A DNA stretch of 64,000 nucleotides, taken from positions 1 to 64,000 of the forward strand of contig WGCV01000042.1 of NCBI GenBank assembly GCA_015493615.1. Direction: 5' to 3'. The DNA comes from Melioribacteraceae bacterium. Its GTDB lineage: Bacteria > Bacteroidota > Ignavibacteria > Ignavibacteriales > Melioribacteraceae. A model generated the notes under the pieces. It saw nothing but the letters and a program-made list of their open reading frames with translations. It did no database searches and was not told the DNA's origin. Positions 14,006-23,248 of this stretch are shown piece after piece; the first letter of the stretch is position 1; the number at the start of each line of letters is the position of its first letter. The translations under genes and the position numbers were made by a program.

Positions 14006-14980
14006 TTAAAATTTATATCCAATTTTTAACCTTCCCCATAAGTGATTGGTTCCGCCCGGAAATTCCGGCGTTAAAAAATAGATTCTTGTTTCAACGACAA
14101 ACTTGCTTAAGTTAATCTGCAGCCCCGCCTCGGAATGAAAAAGCATTCGCGTGATTTTTCCTATTCGATAAGGAGAAAAATCGAAAACCGGATTTCCCTG
14201 AAGGTTTACATCGTAAAATTTGTAGAAAGCTCCCGCTGAAAAATCGGTTTGATAGTTGAATGACTTTTTCGAGGCGTAAAAAGGGGCTTTGAAGAAACTT
14301 TTAGTTGAACTAACGAGAAAATGAACTTTAATTCCCGCCGCAGTTTGAGGAGTTCCGAGCTTCCCCCAAGCCGAAAAGTTAACGAGAAAGTTTTCTTTCA
14401 TTAAAATATTTTTCTCGATATCTGCAAAATAGCATAACAGCAGTCCGTCGGAAATTTGGTTTTCCCAGCCCGGGACATCCGAAGAATGGGGCAGCAGGGA
14501 GTGAATTCCGTTTTGCACTTCTTTACCGTAAGCGTATTTTCCCACCGCTCCAATCGAAACGCTCTCGGTAAAAATCAACTTTTCGACTCTGTTAAAATTC
14601 CGTATTGCGTAGCGAAAGAGCAAGTTTGCCGAAAAAGGTCTGTCGCCGTATTTTACATCCGCAGTTGAAAAATCAGCCGGAGTAAAAATCCGCTGAATCA
14701 GCGATGCGGAAAAATATTTTCTGCCGGAGTGATACGGAAAGAGGAAATTCTCAACTCCGCTTAGTTTTTCTCTTGCTCCGGATAGCGAAAAATAAAATCC
14801 GTTAGTGTAATATTTGTCCGTATTGAAGTAAACATCGTTATCGAAGGAAAAAGAAAAATATTTATTGTATTTAACCGCTTTATTTTTCTTTTGTGGATAA
14901 AGGGGATGCGACGCGGCAAGGAAAAAAACGAGCGTCAGGAAACAGAAAATCTTTCGATAGTTTCGAAATAATAAATCCAC
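14006..14980 (-). CDS. LpxR-like outer-membrane protein (DUF2219 family)
   Basis: Resembles LpxR, the outer-membrane lipid A 3'-O-deacylase. After a signal-peptide-like hydrophobic segment (KIFCFLTLVFFLAAS) comes the family signature FDNDVYFNTDKYYTNG, containing the Asn/Asp and TDxxYTNG residues of the calcium-binding active region. Alternating beta-strand text runs to a C-terminal aromatic residue (YKF), as in beta-barrels. I prefer the GTG at 14980, which has GGCGG upstream, begins the signal peptide and avoids overlap. An ATG at 15034 would add 18 residues and overlap the upstream gene by 41 nt. Function as a lipid A deacylase is a family-level inference. Confidence 0.8.
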   Translation of the reverse strand: MDLLFRNYRKIFCFLTLVFFLAASHPLYPQKKNKAVKYNKYFSFSFDNDVYFNTDKYYTNGFYFSLSGAREKLSGVENFLFPYHSGRKYFSASLIQRIFTPADFSTADVKYGDRPFSANLLFRYAIRNFNRVEKLIFTESVSIGAVGKYAYGKEVQNGIHSLLPHSSDVPGWENQISDGLLLCYFADIEKNILMKENFLVNFSAWGKLGTPQTAAGIKVHFLVSSTKSFFKAPFYASKKSFNYQTDFSAGAFYKFYDVNLQGNPVFDFSPYRIGKITRMLFHSEAGLQINLSKFVVETRIYFLTPEFPGGTNHLWGRLKIGYKF

Positions 14981-14993
14981 CCCGCCGCCTAAA

Positions 14994-15446
14994 TTAATTC
15001 TCGATGAAAGTAATTTGATTGCTGTCGGGATCAAAAATTGTAAATGAAAGTTTTTCGTTTATATCAAGGTGCATCGGCTTAACAAATTTCTGTTTCATAC
15101 CGATAAGCTTTCTGAATAAGCGCGAAATCTTTTCCGTTCGGAAAATCATATCCCGCTTAACTTTATCGCCGGAACGGAGCAAATTAATTTTAACCGCGTC
15201 GTTCCCGATTGCGACAACGCCGGTGTCGTTATCCGTAAGTGAATAAAAATTAAGATACTCCCGATAAAACCGAGCAAGATTATGCGGGTGTTCGGAATGA
15301 AGCGTATAAACCGAGCCGACAAATGTGAACTTATCCAAATCCTTTGATTTGGTTTCGGAAATAATATTAAAAAGCTCGACAACGAGAAAGAGCGTCATGA
15401 AAAGAATGAAAATAAATGTCGCCCGTTTTTTTTTAGACATTGCCAT
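14994..15446 (-). CDS. Membrane-anchored VOC/glyoxalase-like protein
   Basis: A 150-residue protein with a basic start (MAMSKKKR), one transmembrane helix (about residues 9-29) and a small soluble part. The soluble part resembles one half of the vicinal oxygen chelate fold: VYTLHSEHPHNLARFYREYL at its start, followed by strands, then HLDIN and IFDPDSNQITFIEN at the end, where glyoxalase-like proteins have a metal-ligand Glu. The predicted topology places this domain outside the cytoplasm, which is unusual for the fold. Start codons abut the pduT-like stop (1 nt gap). I do not recognise a specific function. Confidence 0.7.
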   Translation of the reverse strand: MAMSKKKRATFIFILFMTLFLVVELFNIISETKSKDLDKFTFVGSVYTLHSEHPHNLARFYREYLNFYSLTDNDTGVVAIGNDAVKINLLRSGDKVKRDMIFRTEKISRLFRKLIGMKQKFVKPMHLDINEKLSFTIFDPDSNQITFIEN

Positions 15447-15447
15447 T

Positions 15448-15999
15448 TTAAATCATCTCGTTTAGAAGTTCTTTTCTCGGCTGAGCAATTACAACTTTAT
15501 TGACAAGCAGTCCTTTCCGCGATATAGAATCGGCTCCGCTTTCCACGGCGCTTGTAACAGCGGCGACTTCCCCGGTGAGCGTACAGAACGCTTTACCGCC
15601 GAGAGCCATTGCCAAGCGAATTTCAATCAATCGAACATTAGCCGCTTTAACTGCCGCGTCCGCGCCTTCAATCAAAGAAGCGACGGAAAACGATTCTATT
15701 ATTCCGAGCGCTTCGAGTTCGCCCGCTTGCGTATGCCCCGAAAGCGCGGGGAAAATATCGGGGTGAACATTGGGGATGACAAATGTATCAATAATTGAAT
15801 AATCCAACCGGTTTTCGGCGGCATCAACAGCGGATTGCACTTCCGCCACATCTCCGCCTACCATTACCATATATTTACCGGAGCAGATTGTTCTCGACAG
15901 AACTAATTCCACCTCCGAAGTTTTCAACATTATATCAGCCGCCTGCATGCCCGAAGCGACGCTCGACAACTCTACCAAACCTAATGAGTTCATTTTCAT
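15448..15999 (-). CDS. pduT: PduT-like tandem-BMC shell protein with predicted Fe-S site
   Basis: A 183-residue protein made of two BMC domains (about 4-88 and 95-180): NSLGLVELSSVASGMQAADI opens the first and EALGIIESFSVASLIEGADA the second. Such BMC-T proteins form pseudohexameric trimers in bacterial microcompartment facets. The first domain has RTICSGKY with Cys39, matching the position of the PduT cysteine that binds a [4Fe-4S] cluster at the trimer pore. The gene is 7 nt downstream of the pduS-like gene, the known partner. No BMC-H, BMC-P (vertex) or enzyme gene is in the window. The 183-aa length is normal for the family. Function in electron transfer across a shell is inferred from family and pairing. 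Confidence 0.9.
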   Translation of the reverse strand: MKMNSLGLVELSSVASGMQAADIMLKTSEVELVLSRTICSGKYMVMVGGDVAEVQSAVDAAENRLDYSIIDTFVIPNVHPDIFPALSGHTQAGELEALGIIESFSVASLIEGADAAVKAANVRLIEIRLAMALGGKAFCTLTGEVAAVTSAVESGADSISRKGLLVNKVVIAQPRKELLNEMI

Positions 16000-16006
16000 A
16001 TTAAAC

Positions 16007-17323
16007 CTAAACTTTTGTTATTCTAATAAATTCTTCCGATACGTGTGTAACTTTTCCGCTAATAGAAGCGTGAACGGGCGCCCCGAGTTTCCCCTCTTCA
16101 ATCTTTCCGATTAAATCACCTTTTTGAACGCTATCTCCAACAGAGACAATTGCTTTCGCATGAACGCCAACATGCTGTTTAAGCAGAATCTTCACTTGTG
16201 ACGGCTCGGGAAAACCTTCCGTATAAGGGGTCGGGACATTGTACTTTGCTACGTTCAGTTTTTTCATCAGCTGTTTGACGGGCACTTTTCGTCCATCTTT
16301 AATCGGATGAATTTTTACTTCCTTTTTTTGCTCATGCTTTTTCCCGTTTGCATGCATGTAAGATTTTCCCTGTTCGCATGCTTCCCTCGGATACAATTCC
16401 TCCGGACATGAATAAAGGGTGCAAAGTCCGCACGAGCTGCACAAATCCGCGAATTCATTCCAAACCGCGTAACCGGTTTTACTGAATTCCAGCGAACGCA
16501 TCACTTTGTGAGGCTGCACCTCGTAGCCCATTAAATAACGCGGGCAAAACTCCGTGCAGTACGAACACTGGTCGCAAGCCGATTTTCCGATACGGTTCAT
16601 GTCGGCAACCGGACGATCCATTCGCGTTACAAGATGATGTTCCTTAGGTAAAATAATTAACGCGCCGGTTGTTTTGGTTATCGCTTCCGTAACATTGTCG
16701 GTTAAAGTTCCCATCATTAAACCGCCGATAAATATTCCGAAATCATCGACTGTCGTTCCGCCGGCAAACTTAATAGCATCCTCAAAAGTCGTTCCGACGG
16801 GAACAAAAAAAGTGGAAGGATTATTAACCGCGCCTGTAACGCAGATAAACTTATCCGTAACGGGAACGCCTTCCTCCGCCAATGAAATATTGTAGAGCGT
16901 TTCAACGTTGTTAACAACGCACCCTACGTCAAGCGGAATTCCATGCGGCGGAATTAATCTGCCGGTGGCGTTATAAACAAGCTCGTATTCATCCCCCGCG
17001 GGATAGTAATCCTGCAGATGAACAACCTCAAGATTCTTATCTTCGAGATATTTTTCAACTTCCTCAATCGCCGGATAGTTTTTATCTTTTATTCCGATGT
17101 ACCCGATTTGCGCGCCGGTTTCATTTACCATTAATTCCATTCCGCGTACAACCCGCTCGGCAAAGTTTCTTGTCAACTCAAAATCCTTGTGAAGAAGCGG
17201 CTCGCATTCCGCGCCGTTTGCAATTACGTACTCAACTTTTGAGTTTGCTTTAACATGCGCGGGAAATCCGGCGCCTCCGGCTCCTACAACTCCCGCGTTA
17301 AAAATTTTATCGCTTAGTTTCAT
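16007..17323 (-). CDS. pduS: PduS-like RnfC-family iron-sulfur flavoprotein reductase
   Basis: A 438-residue protein related to RnfC/NuoF and to PduS, which reduces cobalamin in B12-dependent microcompartments. The N-terminus has VVGAGGAGFPAHVK (FMN/NADH-binding glycine loop) and ANGAECEPLLHKD. An SLBB-type segment (ICVTGAVNNPSTFFVPVGTT) lies near residue 180-200. Two cysteine clusters predict two [4Fe-4S] centres: CDQCSYCTEFCPR near 255 and CSSCGLCTLYSCPEE near 300. The C-terminus (VSVGDSVQKGDLIGKIEEG) is the barrel-sandwich domain. Its start overlaps the phosphatase gene by 17 nt and pduT follows after 7 nt, indicating translational coupling. Substrate is unproven; cobalamin reduction is the family precedent. 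Confidence 0.9.
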   Translation of the reverse strand: MKLSDKIFNAGVVGAGGAGFPAHVKANSKVEYVIANGAECEPLLHKDFELTRNFAERVVRGMELMVNETGAQIGYIGIKDKNYPAIEEVEKYLEDKNLEVVHLQDYYPAGDEYELVYNATGRLIPPHGIPLDVGCVVNNVETLYNISLAEEGVPVTDKFICVTGAVNNPSTFFVPVGTTFEDAIKFAGGTTVDDFGIFIGGLMMGTLTDNVTEAITKTTGALIILPKEHHLVTRMDRPVADMNRIGKSACDQCSYCTEFCPRYLMGYEVQPHKVMRSLEFSKTGYAVWNEFADLCSSCGLCTLYSCPEELYPREACEQGKSYMHANGKKHEQKKEVKIHPIKDGRKVPVKQLMKKLNVAKYNVPTPYTEGFPEPSQVKILLKQHVGVHAKAIVSVGDSVQKGDLIGKIEEGKLGAPVHASISGKVTHVSEEFIRITKV

Positions 17324-18557
17324 TCTTCTCTTTTCTTTTAATTATTACAAGTGTAGCGTCGTCCTGATATTTACCTTTTAAAGTAGTAAATTTTTCAACC
17401 TCTTCCAATATGGAAAGCGCCATCATTTTCGGAGGCATATCCGCAAACTTACGTATCAGTTTCTTAAATCTTGCTTCGCCGAAAAAGTGGAATTTATCGT
17501 TTGCAGCTTCTACAATTCCGTCCGAATATATTACAAGAATATCGCCGGGATCAAAATAAACGGAATCGGTTTCATACTTGGAGTGCGGCGCAGGTCCCAA
17601 AAGGGGGCCCGTCGAAGAAAGTTCTACAATCTTCTTCTTGTTTTTCAGTAAGTAGGGGGAATTGTGCCCGGCGTTGGCATATAGGAAAAGCCCTTTCGTG
17701 TCCTCCGAAATTTCTCCGTAAAACAAAGTTGTGAATCTGTCATCCGAAAAAATCTGATTAATAAGATTGTTCAATCTGCTCATCAGAGCTGAAATTTTTA
17801 TCTGAAAATAGGACGCCATTCTGATAGCTCCCGAAATGTACATCGCTTCGGCGGCAGCGTCCAGTCCTTTTGAGGCGGCGTCGCCAACTGCTATTCCCAA
17901 ACGGTTTTCCCCTTCCCCGATTTTAAGATAATCGAAAAAATCACCGCCGAGCGTTTTAGCGGGAATCGTTATTCCGTAGATACAGTAATCGTGGAAATAA
18001 TATTCATGCTCGGGAAGAAGACTCTGCTGCAACTTCTGCGCTTTATCCAAATCGTTCAGCAAATCATCTGTTTTTTCGGAAAGTTCTTTCTCTTTTATCT
18101 TTTGAGTAAGCAAAGTTGAAACAATATTAAGAATGGAGAGAAACTCATTATTCACATTGTCTGTACTTAATGCAAGAAGATATTCGTAATAAGTTTTATC
18201 GTCAATTTTAATTTTTCTTCCGAAACCGGAAGCGGAGTATTTGAAAATTCCTTTGCTAAGAAGTTCCTTGTTTATCTCGGTTGAAGTAATCGTTCTTTCT
18301 TCTTCAATACGGGAAAAGAGTTCGTAATTTTCATTAAGAGAAAGTTCAAAATCTTTTTTTATCCTTCTGACTTTTCCGGTTTGAAAAAGAATTTTATACG
18401 ATTTATTTTCCTTGCATAGTTTCCAAACGCGTCCGCCGTAAACTTTAACTTTTTCATCTTTTACAAGTTCGCCTATTACTTTTTTAAATAGCTCCGTATC
18501 GTTTTTATAGTTGAACGATGCAATGCGCTGTAAAGTTTTGTAAATTCTTTTCTGCAC
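17307..18557 (-). CDS. SpoIIE/RsbU-type PPM serine phosphatase
   Basis: A 416-residue protein. The first ~185 residues include a basic alpha/beta region and a GAF-like segment ending in a coiled-coil linker (DLDKAQKLQQSLLPE). The C-terminal PP2C domain follows, with the metal-binding aspartates in GGDFFDYLKIG and VGDAASKGLDAA (the family norm is GDVSGKG), then YSDGIVEA and DDATLVIIK. Enzymes of this type dephosphorylate anti-sigma-factor antagonists in partner-switching pathways. No STAS antagonist or anti-sigma kinase gene is nearby. The start is GTG at 18557 with CGGAG upstream. The gap to the M64 gene is 2 nt and the end overlaps pduS by 17 nt. Confidence 0.9.
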   Translation of the reverse strand: MQKRIYKTLQRIASFNYKNDTELFKKVIGELVKDEKVKVYGGRVWKLCKENKSYKILFQTGKVRRIKKDFELSLNENYELFSRIEEERTITSTEINKELLSKGIFKYSASGFGRKIKIDDKTYYEYLLALSTDNVNNEFLSILNIVSTLLTQKIKEKELSEKTDDLLNDLDKAQKLQQSLLPEHEYYFHDYCIYGITIPAKTLGGDFFDYLKIGEGENRLGIAVGDAASKGLDAAAEAMYISGAIRMASYFQIKISALMSRLNNLINQIFSDDRFTTLFYGEISEDTKGLFLYANAGHNSPYLLKNKKKIVELSSTGPLLGPAPHSKYETDSVYFDPGDILVIYSDGIVEAANDKFHFFGEARFKKLIRKFADMPPKMMALSILEEVEKFTTLKGKYQDDATLVIIKRKEKNETKR

Positions 18558-18559
18558 TT

Positions 18560-19828
18560 TTACTCCGAATAATATTTAATAACGTTAATAATAGCGTTTT
18601 TGCTCGGCAAATTAAATCCGTTTGCCGATAACGATTTCATGATGCTGTTGTAGGTGGGACGGTAAACTCCTTTCGCGACGTATCCGCCTCCTTCGAACGC
18701 GCCCAGTTTATCGTAGTAAATCGAATCATCTGGAGTAGGAATCGGCGTCGAAGATGCAATTAAACTCTTCCATTTTTTTTCAAAATGCACAAGCGTAGTG
18801 ATATTTTTCTCCCACGGTTCAACATTCAAATCGTAGTAGTTTTCATAAGAAACGTCCGAAGTGTAATATTCATCGGCTAATCCCGCAAGTCCGTGTCCGA
18901 ACTCGTGAATAAAAACAAGCTCCGCTTTTTTATTTTGAGCTGCAACCGCCGAATAAAAATTATAAATTGCTCCGCCTCCGTATTTGTCGCTGTTAACCAG
19001 AATATAAATTTGGTCGTAAGGAGCGGAAGCCGCAACATCGGCAAGTTTGAAATAATCTTCAACCATCAAATATCTTTCGCTGTCAAATGTGTAGTAGGAA
19101 GCGTTTAAAAGAGTTTTTCTGTAAACTCCTTTTCCGGGAATATCTGCGCCGCTATCTTGCGAGTAACTGTTAATTCCCCAAATGTTAATTCTGTTTTTCA
19201 TCTCGGAGAAAGGAGAATACCCGAGAAGAAAACCGGCAAACTTTTTACAATCATTATGATACTTGGTGGAATCGTTTTCCGTATAACCTTCAGGAATAAA
19301 TAAAACATCCAACTTTTTACTATAATCTCCGGAATAATGAATCTTAAAGACCATGGACGTATCCACAGTTTCTTTTCTGATGAAATAATTTCCCGGATTA
19401 ATTTTTAATGAAAATAGTTCGCGGAAAATATTTTTTCTGTTTCGTCTTTTGATTACAAGCCGAACAGAATCCTTCGGGAATGGAAAGCGAATCGAATAAT
19501 TTAACGCGCGGTTATGATTTTTAGCGTCTTCCGTAGTTTGCCATTCTTGGGAAAGTGTGGAAAATCCTTTGGAAAAAATCAGTTTATTATCCTTTAAGGA
19601 ATAAACATAAAAGCAGTAATATCCCAAATTCAGCGTGTCTATTAAGTTATGATGCGAACCGCTGAAATAGGGTTCCCGCTTAAGAGAATGAAAATAAATA
19701 TTTTCCGATGAAGCGGTTCCTGCCTGAATAATATCCAATCGTAAAGCCCCGGCGGTGAAATAGTCATCAAAATTAATCTGAGCAAAAAGAGAAATTGAAG
19801 AAAAAAGTAGAATAAAAAGCAGTTTCAT
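18560..19828 (-). CDS. Secreted M64 (IgA-peptidase family) metallopeptidase
   Basis: A 422-residue protein with a signal peptide (MKLLFILLFSSISLFAQ). An N-terminal beta-rich domain (about 20-150; M64 N-domain-like) precedes a catalytic domain with FIPEGYTENDSTKYHND at its start and HEFGHGLAGLADEYY near residue 308, the HEXXH zinc motif followed by the conserved GLxDEYY. Although named after an IgA-cleaving enzyme, most members occur in free-living FCB bacteria with unknown substrates. Its start overlaps the end of pyrE by 4 nt (ATGA), so it is co-transcribed with a pyrimidine gene. Confidence 0.92.
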   Translation of the reverse strand: MKLLFILLFSSISLFAQINFDDYFTAGALRLDIIQAGTASSENIYFHSLKREPYFSGSHHNLIDTLNLGYYCFYVYSLKDNKLIFSKGFSTLSQEWQTTEDAKNHNRALNYSIRFPFPKDSVRLVIKRRNRKNIFRELFSLKINPGNYFIRKETVDTSMVFKIHYSGDYSKKLDVLFIPEGYTENDSTKYHNDCKKFAGFLLGYSPFSEMKNRINIWGINSYSQDSGADIPGKGVYRKTLLNASYYTFDSERYLMVEDYFKLADVAASAPYDQIYILVNSDKYGGGAIYNFYSAVAAQNKKAELVFIHEFGHGLAGLADEYYTSDVSYENYYDLNVEPWEKNITTLVHFEKKWKSLIASSTPIPTPDDSIYYDKLGAFEGGGYVAKGVYRPTYNSIMKSLSANGFNLPSKNAIINVIKYYSE

Positions 19829-20412
19829 TCCATCACCTGAAAAACTTTTCTGGAACCCGGTTTAACAAGCGGCAGCCCTTGTTTGCAAAGCGGACATTCA
19901 TCCGGTTCGTATGCTTTTGCTTCAAGTTTAAGTACGCTTTTGAGCGGATAACCGAAATCGATTTTGCCGTTGCTTCTATCGACTATAACTCCTACGCCGA
20001 CTACGTTCCCCCCGTTTTGCTCAACGATATCAATTACTTCCCGAACAGAGCCTCCGGTTGTAATCACATCTTCGCAAATCAGAAAATTCTCGCCCTCTTC
20101 AATCTTGAAATTCCGGCGAAGTTTCATCTCTTTGTTTTCACGCTCGGTAAAAATAAATCTTTTGCCAAGCTGCCTTGCTGTTTCCTGTCCAACGATTATT
20201 CCGCCCATTGCCGGAGCTATAACGGAGTCAATACTAAATTCTCGATAAAAAGAAGAGAGTTCGCCGCAAATCTTTGTCGTAATATCCGGATACTGCAAAG
20301 CCTGAGCGCACTGAAAATATTGGTCGCTGTGCTTTCCGGAAGTTAATAAAAAATGCCCTTTTAAAAGGGCATTGGATTTTATGAATATATCTGCAATCTC
20401 GTTATTTCTCAT
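19825..20412 (-). CDS. pyrE: Orotate phosphoribosyltransferase
   Basis: A 195-residue enzyme converting orotate and PRPP into OMP in pyrimidine synthesis. Visible motifs are LLTSGKHSDQYFQC near the N-terminus, APAMGGIIVGQETARQLG, FTERENKEMKLRR and the PRPP loop LICEDVITTGGSVREVI. A C-terminal CPLCKQGLPLVKPGSR carries two cysteines in a short knuckle, as in the longer archaeal/FCB-type PyrE. The gene starts 6 nt after the dehydratase gene. Unusually, codons 14-23 contain a perfect palindrome followed by T residues on the coding strand (see the separate entry), which resembles an intrinsic terminator. Confidence 0.97.
   Translation of the reverse strand: MRNNEIADIFIKSNALLKGHFLLTSGKHSDQYFQCAQALQYPDITTKICGELSSFYREFSIDSVIAPAMGGIIVGQETARQLGKRFIFTERENKEMKLRRNFKIEEGENFLICEDVITTGGSVREVIDIVEQNGGNVVGVGVIVDRSNGKIDFGYPLKSVLKLEAKAYEPDECPLCKQGLPLVKPGSRKVFQVME
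20345..20373 (-). promoter_or_regulatory. Terminator-like hairpin inside the start of pyrE (possible attenuator)
   Basis: AATGCCCTTTT (20363-20373 read on the other strand) and AAAAGGGCATT form a 22-bp perfect palindrome at 20352-20373. On the transcribed strand it is GCCC-TTTTAAAA-GGGC followed by ATTTTTTATTA. It covers codons for NALLKGHFLL. Palindrome and T run are directly visible; an attenuation role is inference. Confidence 0.45.
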
Positions 20413-20418
20413 TAAAGA

Positions 20419-20697
20419 TTAAATCCTTTCCAAACGGTCCGCTAACTTAATGTCCAATTCCGTAACGCCGTTTTCATCATGCGTGGTAGTAGTAACCTTA
20501 ACCTTGTTGTAGGAATGAATTAATATATCAGGATGATGATTCAGTTTTTCAGCTTCAACTCCCAACTTTACTACAAAACTTAAAGCGTTATAGAAATCAA
20601 TGAACTGGAATTCTTTCTCAAGATGACTGTCAATAAGCTTCCATCCGTCCAAATCTTTGATGCGCTCCTCAATCTCTTTTTGGGTTAATACTGCCAT
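20419..20697 (-). CDS. phhB: Pterin-4a-carbinolamine dehydratase
   Basis: A 92-residue protein matching 4a-hydroxytetrahydrobiopterin dehydratase. The signature EKLNHHPDILIHSYNKV, then THDENGVTELDIKLA, supplies the catalytic histidines. It regenerates tetrahydropterin after aromatic amino acid hydroxylation or, in bacteria without hydroxylases, may act in molybdopterin-related or other pterin metabolism. No hydroxylase gene is in the window. It sits between clpC (1 nt gap) and pyrE (6 nt gap). Confidence 0.95.
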   Translation of the reverse strand: MAVLTQKEIEERIKDLDGWKLIDSHLEKEFQFIDFYNALSFVVKLGVEAEKLNHHPDILIHSYNKVKVTTTTHDENGVTELDIKLADRLERI

Positions 20698-20698
20698 G

Positions 20699-23248
20699 TT
20701 AATTATCCTTTATTATTTGAGATTCTCCGGAAGAATTAACTTCATTTTCTTCCTCGTTATTTAACTCTTCTTTATTCTTAATTTTCTTATTTACAAATTT
20801 AGTAAAAATTATTTTATCAGACTTCTTTCTGTGTTTGGCAATTATCGTATCTCCTTCCTCGAAAGAATTCAGCAACAGTTCTTCGGCGAGCGGATCTTCA
20901 AGGTACTTCTGAACTGCGCGGCGGAGAGGACGCGCTCCGTACTTCTCGTCGTAACCTTTTTCGGCAATAAAATCGGTAGCGCTCTTCGAGAGTTTAAATT
21001 GCATATTCTGCTCGCTAAGGTTATTAACCAAATCTCTGATTTCCAAATTAATTAATTTTTTAATGTCATCTTTTTCAAGATTACGGAATACAATTATATC
21101 GTCAATACGATTTAAGAACTCAGGATTAAACATATCCTTCATAGCGTCCTGAACCGTGTTTTTCAGATGCTCGAATCTGTCGTCGGCGCTATTCTCATTG
21201 AAGCCGAACCCGCCGGTACCTTTTAAGTTTTTTGTCCCGACATTCGAAGTCATGATGATAATCGTATTCTTAAAGTCAACCTTTCTTCCGAGTGAATCCG
21301 TAACCGTCCCGTCATCCAAAATCTGAAGGAGAAGATTAAAAACATCCGCATGCGCCTTTTCAATCTCATCGAAAAGAACAACCGAATATGGTTTTCTCCT
21401 TACGCGCTCGGTCAGCTGTCCGCCTTCTTCATACCCTACATATCCGGGAGGCGCTCCAACCAAACGGGAGACCGCAAACTTCTCCATATATTCCGACATA
21501 TCAATTCTAATCAGAGCGTCGTCGGAATCAAAAAGGTAACGCGCCAAAACTTTTGCCATTTCCGTTTTTCCCACTCCCGTAGGACCGAGGAAAATAAACG
21601 AACCAATCGGCTTTTTCGGGTTTTTCAATCCGGCGCGCGCGCGGCGTATAGCTTTGGTAAGGGAAACAACCGCTTTATCCTGTCCGATAATATATTTTTT
21701 AAGCTCTTCTTCCATCTGCAGAAGTTTTTCAGATTCGGCTTGCACAACTCTCGTAACGGGAATGCCGGTCATCATTGCAACAACTTCTCCGATATCCTCT
21801 TCCGTAACGTCAAACTCCAATTTATCCGCTTCAATTTCCCAATCGGCGCGGGCTTGCTCCAATCTGTTGAGTAATTCTCTCTCACTATCGCGAAGTCTCG
21901 CCGCCTCTTCAAAATCCTGACGTTTTACAACTTCCTTTTTCTCTTCTCTGATTTTCTCAATATCGGCTTCAAGTTCTATTATTTCCTTCGGGACATCATA
22001 ATTACCCATATAAACTCTTGCGCCCGCTTCATCAAGAACGTCGATGGCTTTATCGGGGAAATGCCTGTCGGTAATATATCTGTCGCTTAACTTAACGGCG
22101 GCGACAATCGCTTCATCCGAATAATGAACGTGATGATGTTCTTCGTACTTAAATTTAATATTCCTCAGAATTTCAATTGTTTCCTCAACCTGCGGAGGTT
22201 CAACCATAACCTTCTGAAAACGTCTGTCCAAAGCGCCGTCGGTTTCTACAAATTTCCGGTACTCGTCAAGCGTAGTCGCGCCAATGCACTGAATATCTCC
22301 GCGCGCCAAAGCAGGTTTGAACATATTCGATGCGTCAAGCGATCCTGACGCTCCTCCTGCCCCGACAATAGTATGAAGCTCGTCAATGAATAAAATTATA
22401 TCGTCCGCTTTTTCAAGTTCGTTCATCAGCGCTTTCATTCGCTCTTCAAACTGTCCCCGGTACTTCGTTCCGGCAACCAAACCGGCTAAGTCCAAAGTTA
22501 CCACGCGCTTATTCATCAAAATTCTCGGCACTTCCTTTTTAACGATCCGCAGCGCAAGCCCTTCGGCAATAGCTGTTTTACCAACGCCCGGCTCTCCGAT
22601 TAAAACAGGGTTGTTCTTTTTTCTCCGGCTTAATATTTGCGTAACGCGCTCAATTTCCTGCGTTCTTCCAATTACAGGGTCAAGCTTCCCTTCGGTTGCG
22701 AGTCGGGTAAGATCGTGCCCGAAATTATCAAGCACCGGCGTTTTTGATTTATCCGCCTTTTTTCCCGAAGGAGCTGCCGGAGGTTCGAAATCCGTTCCGC
22801 GGGAATATGCGCTTTGTCCGTAGATTGCGTTAAGCTCGTTTCGCGCAGATTCATAAGTTACGTTAAACTGCGCCAGAATGTTAGAAGCTACATTGTCCGG
22901 TTCGCGAAGAATGCCAAGAAGTAAGTGTTCCGTTCCGATTACGTTTTTTCTATATATTTTCGACTCGACCTGAGTGCGTTTTAAAACTCTTTCCGCTTGT
23001 TTTGTAAGAGGAACTTTACCGATTGTTAAAGTCCCGCCTGTTGAGCGGATAGCGTCTTCGAGCGTATTTTTCAACTCCAACAGCTGAACGCCGAGACGCT
23101 TCAATATTTTTATCCCAATGCCTTCGCCTTCGCGAATCATTCCGAGAAGCAGATGCTCTGTCCCGATAAAATCGTGACCAAGTCTGAAGGCTTCTTCCTT
23201 GCTGTATTTTATAACATCCTGAACTCTTTCAGAAAAATTAAATTCCAT
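20699..23248 (-). CDS. clpC: ATP-dependent Clp protease ATP-binding subunit ClpC
   Basis: An 849-residue Hsp100 unfoldase. Two Clp N-repeats occupy about 1-145 (FIGTEHLLLGMIREGEG and VIGTEHLLLGILREPDN). AAA domain D1 has Walker A GEPGVGKTAIAEG and IDELHT. A coiled-coil with a UVR motif (about 415-455) distinguishes ClpC from ClpA. D2 has GPTGVGKTEMAK, FDEIEKA and the C-terminal domain. It delivers substrates to ClpP for degradation. The C-terminus is a long acidic/polar tail rich in Glu and Asn. AGGTAAAA precedes the ATG. It is the first gene of the ten-gene minus-strand run; its promoter must lie in the 288 bp before it. Confidence 0.97.
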   Translation of the reverse strand: MEFNFSERVQDVIKYSKEEAFRLGHDFIGTEHLLLGMIREGEGIGIKILKRLGVQLLELKNTLEDAIRSTGGTLTIGKVPLTKQAERVLKRTQVESKIYRKNVIGTEHLLLGILREPDNVASNILAQFNVTYESARNELNAIYGQSAYSRGTDFEPPAAPSGKKADKSKTPVLDNFGHDLTRLATEGKLDPVIGRTQEIERVTQILSRRKKNNPVLIGEPGVGKTAIAEGLALRIVKKEVPRILMNKRVVTLDLAGLVAGTKYRGQFEERMKALMNELEKADDIILFIDELHTIVGAGGASGSLDASNMFKPALARGDIQCIGATTLDEYRKFVETDGALDRRFQKVMVEPPQVEETIEILRNIKFKYEEHHHVHYSDEAIVAAVKLSDRYITDRHFPDKAIDVLDEAGARVYMGNYDVPKEIIELEADIEKIREEKKEVVKRQDFEEAARLRDSERELLNRLEQARADWEIEADKLEFDVTEEDIGEVVAMMTGIPVTRVVQAESEKLLQMEEELKKYIIGQDKAVVSLTKAIRRARAGLKNPKKPIGSFIFLGPTGVGKTEMAKVLARYLFDSDDALIRIDMSEYMEKFAVSRLVGAPPGYVGYEEGGQLTERVRRKPYSVVLFDEIEKAHADVFNLLLQILDDGTVTDSLGRKVDFKNTIIIMTSNVGTKNLKGTGGFGFNENSADDRFEHLKNTVQDAMKDMFNPEFLNRIDDIIVFRNLEKDDIKKLINLEIRDLVNNLSEQNMQFKLSKSATDFIAEKGYDEKYGARPLRRAVQKYLEDPLAEELLLNSFEEGDTIIAKHRKKSDKIIFTKFVNKKIKNKEELNNEEENEVNSSGESQIIKDN

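Follow-up and report, generated by a model that had tools for sequence, protein, structure and literature searches.

The PduS-PduT gene pair of this Ignavibacteriales bacterium probably constitutes the redox module of a FRAG-type microcompartment encoded at scattered sites of the chromosome, with a cargo that would oxidize deoxyribose-derived acetaldehyde and with export of the resulting electrons. The parts of this reading differ in strength: there is good support for counting the pair among the parts of the dispersed compartment, electron export via PduS-PduT is likely by homology to characterized counterparts, and deoxyribose, the most likely source substrate, is a new and testable proposal. 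The observations behind it are the gene set and its synteny, co-occurrence across the order, conserved cysteines, and a fold match to solved PduT.

Results

A conserved PduS-PduT pair in a housekeeping neighborhood

The window, i.e. the whole 64-kb stretch of DNA that was analyzed, is part of contig C42 of a 3.15-Mb Ignavibacteriales genome. Its reverse strand encodes a PduT-type tandem-BMC shell protein (BMC-T; 15448..15999, 183 aa, two PF00936 domains at 1.6e-46) and a PduS-type NADH:flavin/Fe-S oxidoreductase (16007..17323, 438 aa) with Complex1_51K, SLBB, Fer4_17, and C-terminal RnfC_N domains, whose best PDB matches are RnfC chains. The genes are separated by 7 nt (16000-16006), and a promoter and terminator scan revealed no strong terminator between them. 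Domains and translations thus confirm what an earlier note on this DNA had described, namely a tandem-BMC protein carrying Cys39 within RTICSGKY next to a PduS-type protein with two four-cysteine clusters (250/253/256/260 and 295/298/301/306). Conservation of these features is strict: Cys39 is invariant in 80/80 related PduT proteins, and all eight cluster cysteines are kept in 72/72 PduS proteins. We compared 80 PduT loci, two of which begin at a contig edge and were left out of the adjacency count; in all loci with room on the contig (78/78), PduS is the gene immediately preceding PduT. A 99%-identical PduT is present in one Melioribacteraceae MAG.

Compared with the Pdu/Eut PduT equivalog model TIGR02526, the protein scores 127.7 bits, below the cut-off of 250.3, and is therefore filed as PduT-type rather than as an equivalog; its identity to solved PduT chains is 35-49%. 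The AlphaFold model (pLDDT 91.6) matches 3pac with a Z-score of 29.2 and 1.4 Å over 181 residues and, combining tandem BMC domains with the PduT fold, is by predicted fold a shell protein. Cys39 is aligned with a cysteine in the solved PduT structures 3pac and 3nwg, and given that residue n of the model corresponds to n-1 of 3pac at the N-terminal end, it equals Cys38 of solved PduT. According to their PDB titles, 3pac is PduT with a '4Fe-4S cluster binding site' and 3n79 is a C38S mutant; on this basis, Cys38 is taken to be the Fe-S cluster ligand of PduT. By this match, Cys39 likely sits at the position of the pore ligand of a predicted Fe-S cluster.

Upstream of the pair and on the same strand follow a SpoIIE-type PP2C phosphatase (17307..18557; PF07228), which overlaps the start of PduS by 17 nt, an M64-type peptidase (18560..19828; PF09471, PF16217), the orotate phosphoribosyltransferase PyrE (19825..20412; assigned from its translation and from homologues at the same place in relatives), a pterin-4a-carbinolamine dehydratase (20419..20697; PF01329), and ClpC (20699..23248; assigned from its translation and conserved neighborhood). 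We regard these genes as context. The earlier note had placed the pair in a housekeeping operon with clpC, pyrE, and the SpoIIE gene, which is accurate as to strand, but the order is a feature of location in Melioribacteraceae and does not denote a set of functional partners. SpoIIE is found upstream of PduS in 43/65 testable loci, and SpoIIE, ClpC, and PyrE were rejected as partners because not all loci share the neighborhood (43/65 and 31/51). Two nucleotides downstream of PduT, positions 14006-15446 of the same strand encode an LpxR-like outer membrane protein and a 150-aa orphan; among the 80 PduT loci, the orphan has a match only in a near-identical one (L016).

Compartment genes dispersed over the genome

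Whole-genome searches located a BMC-H pair between yqgF and ybbR-tmk (C12:51060-52064), a BMC-P pair between deoB and rpoD (C22:45161-45729), and a third BMC-P gene beside dprA (C62:11978-12253). Shell genes are therefore spread over four contigs, C42 included, and the number of three BMC-P genes is shared with most relatives. Within the window, the same searches recovered neither a further BMC domain nor any gene for BMC-P or an aldehyde dehydrogenase, as the earlier note had stated. Its labels for the pair, 'orphan' and without a microcompartment, are nevertheless wrong for the genome, which encodes BMC-H, BMC-P, and an aldehyde dehydrogenase of the acetylating type at other sites. The alternative that it had offered, a satellite of a distant compartment locus, is half right: there are distant shell genes, but the main locus is absent and every fragment is a satellite.

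Two further observations concern these shell loci. The second BMC-H protein (L008:10348-11064) extends into an acidic C-terminal tail of ~150 aa with a SAP/Rho-N-like ending (GMNVHQLRHLARQFSDFPIKGREISRANRQALIDLFEKLRK). Relatives share this tail, and a similar ending occurs in a BMC-H of Desulfuromusa kysingii (L065:1751-2374); binding of nucleic acid or cargo is a possible function. Directly upstream of the BMC-P pair lies a gene for a 133-aa protein without known family (L009:8763-9164), which some members of the family retain (37-52% identity) and others lack.

Five genes of the genome belong to the aldehyde dehydrogenase family. One of them, located next to argS and remote from the shell genes (C44:105-1694), is of the acetylating acetaldehyde type, scoring 623.9 bits against TIGR02518 (acetaldehyde dehydrogenase, acetylating) at a cut-off of 620.1. 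The protein continues for ~80 residues past its catalytic domain, and in orthologues this tail has a linker of variable sequence that leads into a conserved helix, for example GISESEIQKIIREFNK. Linker plus helix is the build of a known encapsulation peptide (PMC8217296), and on sequence grounds the tail appears encapsulation-peptide-like. A PduL phosphotransacylase was not found in the genome search; CoA recycling thus lacks an explanation, which counts against the reading that we favor.

An extended DeoC as candidate signature enzyme

DeoC (C35:8549-9418, 289 aa) scores 282.7 bits against TIGR00126 over residues 69-278 (cut-off 117.3). The product of DeoC, acetaldehyde, is the substrate of acetaldehyde dehydrogenase. 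Relatives that possess the compartment share the 66 residues ahead of the catalytic domain in conserved form, with a consensus of approximately SQVFxEKxLxDFYCxGxTCxGWERNVxDQPxAVKxIIxxGAxRIAAGxGVG. In compartment-negative genomes, the N-terminus of DeoC is shorter or consists of unrelated, unconserved stretches, and partial remnants of the extension are seen in G044 and perhaps G079, both compartment-negative, which suggests that constraint on this region relaxed once the shell was lost. Gene order is further evidence for the reading that we favor: deoB, encoding phosphopentomutase and hence the step preceding DeoC, adjoins the BMC-P pair in 28/29 loci, and of the 33 genomes with deoC and the BMC-H pair on one contig, 31 have the two 7.7-20.7 kb apart. 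The helical moment of the DeoC extension was not above that of shuffles, and a matrix built from the dehydrogenase tails did not single the extension out. An encapsulation motif common to the dehydrogenase tail and the DeoC extension is, by these two measures, unsupported, and the unconserved N-terminal stretches seen on compartment-negative DeoCs likewise count against reading the extension as an encapsulation signal.

Co-occurrence across the order

Among 113 genomes of the order, 94 contain BMC-P and 19 do not. Using presence thresholds that were set by hand, and scoring four contig-edge dehydrogenase fragments as present, we detected the dehydrogenase orthologue in 84/94 BMC-P-positive vs 0/19 BMC-P-negative genomes, and obtained the same numbers for the DeoC extension (84/94 vs 0/19). 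PduT was found in 81/94 vs 1/19 and PduS in 79/94 vs 1/19 genomes; 18 of the 19 negative genomes lack both. Fisher p values for these four components range from 1e-14 to 5e-11, but ignore shared ancestry and are descriptive only. The negative genomes belong to nine genera, two of which also hold positive genomes. An orthologue of the class II aldolase, by comparison, occurs in 65/94 positive and 16/19 negative genomes, and was rejected as signature enzyme because it does not correlate with the shell. The earlier note's view of the pair as an electron conduit fits these results: residue 39 aligns with Cys38 of solved PduT, and the two genes are co-conserved, being adjacent wherever adjacency could be scored and absent together from nearly all negative genomes. 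Neither of the two observations that the note had named as refuting its view was thus made.

Several of the BMC-P-positive exceptions possess a different contiguous locus or derive from a fragmented assembly. Alongside the scattered set, G012 carries a contiguous PVM-like locus (L266, 1693-12980) with its own PduS-PduT, a BMC-P triplet, an N-terminally tagged AldDH, a class II aldolase, and kinases. Conversely, the 99% complete genome G014 has an intact PduS-PduT pair (L264:7098-8974) with genes that overlap by 4 nt, and genome searches recovered neither BMC-H nor BMC-P, the dehydrogenase orthologue, or the DeoC extension. G014 may therefore have retained the pair after losing the compartment, or the pair may have a second role; this genome offers a natural setting in which to test for recent loss or for a role without a compartment. 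Outside the order, Acidobacteria loci including L081, L087, and L089 also carry the pair (PduS and PduT 52-57% and 70-74% identical, respectively). Around these pairs, which are from Bryobacterales, no other shell gene was seen within ~9 kb where the contig allows, which suggests a dispersed compartment there, too.

Discussion

Comparison with known microcompartments

FRAG (fragmented) compartments have been described as having shell genes at as many as six positions in the genome, a BMC-P triplet, and an AldDH, and the Ignavibacteriae are one of the groups that contain them (Sutter et al. 2021, PMC8217296). With its dispersed shell genes, three BMC-P genes, and an AldDH remote from the shell genes, the compartment of this genome fits FRAG by gene arrangement; compartments of this kind were already known. 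In Melioribacter roseus, seven BMC-P genes are distributed over five loci (Axen et al. 2014, PMC4207490). However, the survey reports no obvious signature enzyme for FRAG and lists its function as unknown (PMC8217296), whereas here co-occurrence links the shell with the extended DeoC, the acetylating dehydrogenase, and PduS-PduT. Similar in chemistry are the SPU (sugar phosphate utilization) loci, in which a DeoC aldolase supplies acetaldehyde to an acetaldehyde-type AldDH (PMC8217296) and some of which carry PduS (PMC4207490). Our genome shares the acetaldehyde-type AldDH and a DeoC expected to make its substrate, but lacks a single locus, and DeoC on C35 is not adjacent to shell genes; we have therefore not filed it as SPU.

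PduS of Citrobacter contains FMN and two coupled [4Fe-4S] centers, oxidizes NADH, is reducible by NADH, and co-purifies with PduT; its motifs are C264xxC267xxC270xxxC274 and C309xxC312xxC315xxxxC320 (PMC2982820). The pair described here resembles PduS-PduT of the Salmonella and Citrobacter Pdu systems in domain order, in two four-cysteine motifs at equal spacing, in the pore cysteine, and in gene pairing. It differs in the lower relatedness of PduT, given above, and in a conserved gene set that includes no diol dehydratase. Another close system is the EUT-type locus of Desulfuromusa kysingii (L065; PduT 74%, PduS 56%, AldDH 50%, and BMC-H 74% identical), where PduS and PduT are likewise adjacent. 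That locus, in contrast, is a single contiguous one, comprising PduS, PduT, AldDH, BMC-H, and BMC-P together with ethanolamine-type enzymes.

A proposed route from deoxyribose to exported electrons

Given the properties of Citrobacter PduS and the match of PduT to 3pac, electron flow from NADH via PduS and the PduT cluster to the cytosol is the most economical reading. In the mechanism that we propose, DeoC would convert 2-deoxyribose-5-phosphate to acetaldehyde, which the dehydrogenase would turn into acetyl-CoA and NADH inside the shell. PduS would reoxidize this NADH and pass the electrons to a [4Fe-4S] cluster held by three Cys39 residues at the PduT pore, from where they would reach a cytosolic acceptor, so that NAD+ is recycled within the shell. 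Here we infer one assembled shell, encapsulation of both enzymes, the direction of electron flow, and the substrate.

The substrate and the nature of the redox reaction can be read in other ways. The pair might export electrons from a dispersed compartment that is fed by another source of acetaldehyde or, as in the PVM type, by lactaldehyde produced by a class II aldolase. A class II aldolase gene (C62:7628-8290) does lie 3.7 kb from the third BMC-P, Melioribacter roseus has been filed as PVM-like owing to such an aldolase (PMC4207490), and the DeoC extension gave no encapsulation signal in either helical moment or tail matrix. We nonetheless consider a non-deoxyribose aldehyde rather unlikely, as the aldolase does not track the compartment, the scattered dehydrogenase is of the acetaldehyde type by TIGR02518, and the PVM-like locus of G012 is a separate, contiguous cluster that includes a PduS, PduT, dehydrogenase, and aldolase of its own. 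Homology to PduS (PMC2982820) could also mean that the oxidoreductase is a cobalamin reductase serving a B12-dependent compartment enzyme, as in Salmonella; the conserved set holds neither diol dehydratase nor ethanolamine lyase, which is weak evidence that concerns this set only, and we judge such a function highly improbable.

A compartment-free redox role, for example one in which a soluble NADH oxidoreductase is paired with an Fe-S protein trimer, would make co-occurrence with the shell a matter of history. The earlier note had raised such an independent role, and the housekeeping operon of this genome, the Bryobacterales flanks, and G014, which keeps the pair alone, speak for it. It is weakened by the joint absence of both genes from 18 of the 19 compartment-negative genomes, and a PduT that is by predicted fold a shell protein, with its pore cysteine kept in every homologue compared, also argues against it, so that we regard it as improbable. 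The redox module of a dispersed, deoxyribose-fed compartment remains our preferred reading. We extend it, more tentatively and with slightly less than even confidence, to the order: FRAG of the Ignavibacteriales may be a fully dispersed, vertically inherited deoxyribose-phosphate metabolosome, in which DeoC would be the signature enzyme and owe its recruitment to an N-terminal extension specific to the lineage, which would decay after shell loss, and PduS-PduT would be an NAD-regenerating electron outlet replacing alcohol dehydrogenase.

Implications

Electron export through a shell pore has been proposed since 2010 and is not settled. If PduS-PduT regenerates NAD+ in these bacteria, they would offer a clear case for testing it. 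For FRAG, described in 2021 without signature enzyme or function, co-occurrence now supplies candidates for both, and these come from an order with cultured members. Even where 64 kb of sequence show such a pair as an apparent orphan, the genome as a whole can encode a complete, dispersed compartment to which it belongs, and locus-based microcompartment searches will therefore miss cargo of this kind. The scattered set recurs in most sequenced relatives, where it probably serves to burn acetaldehyde from the breakdown of DNA sugar.
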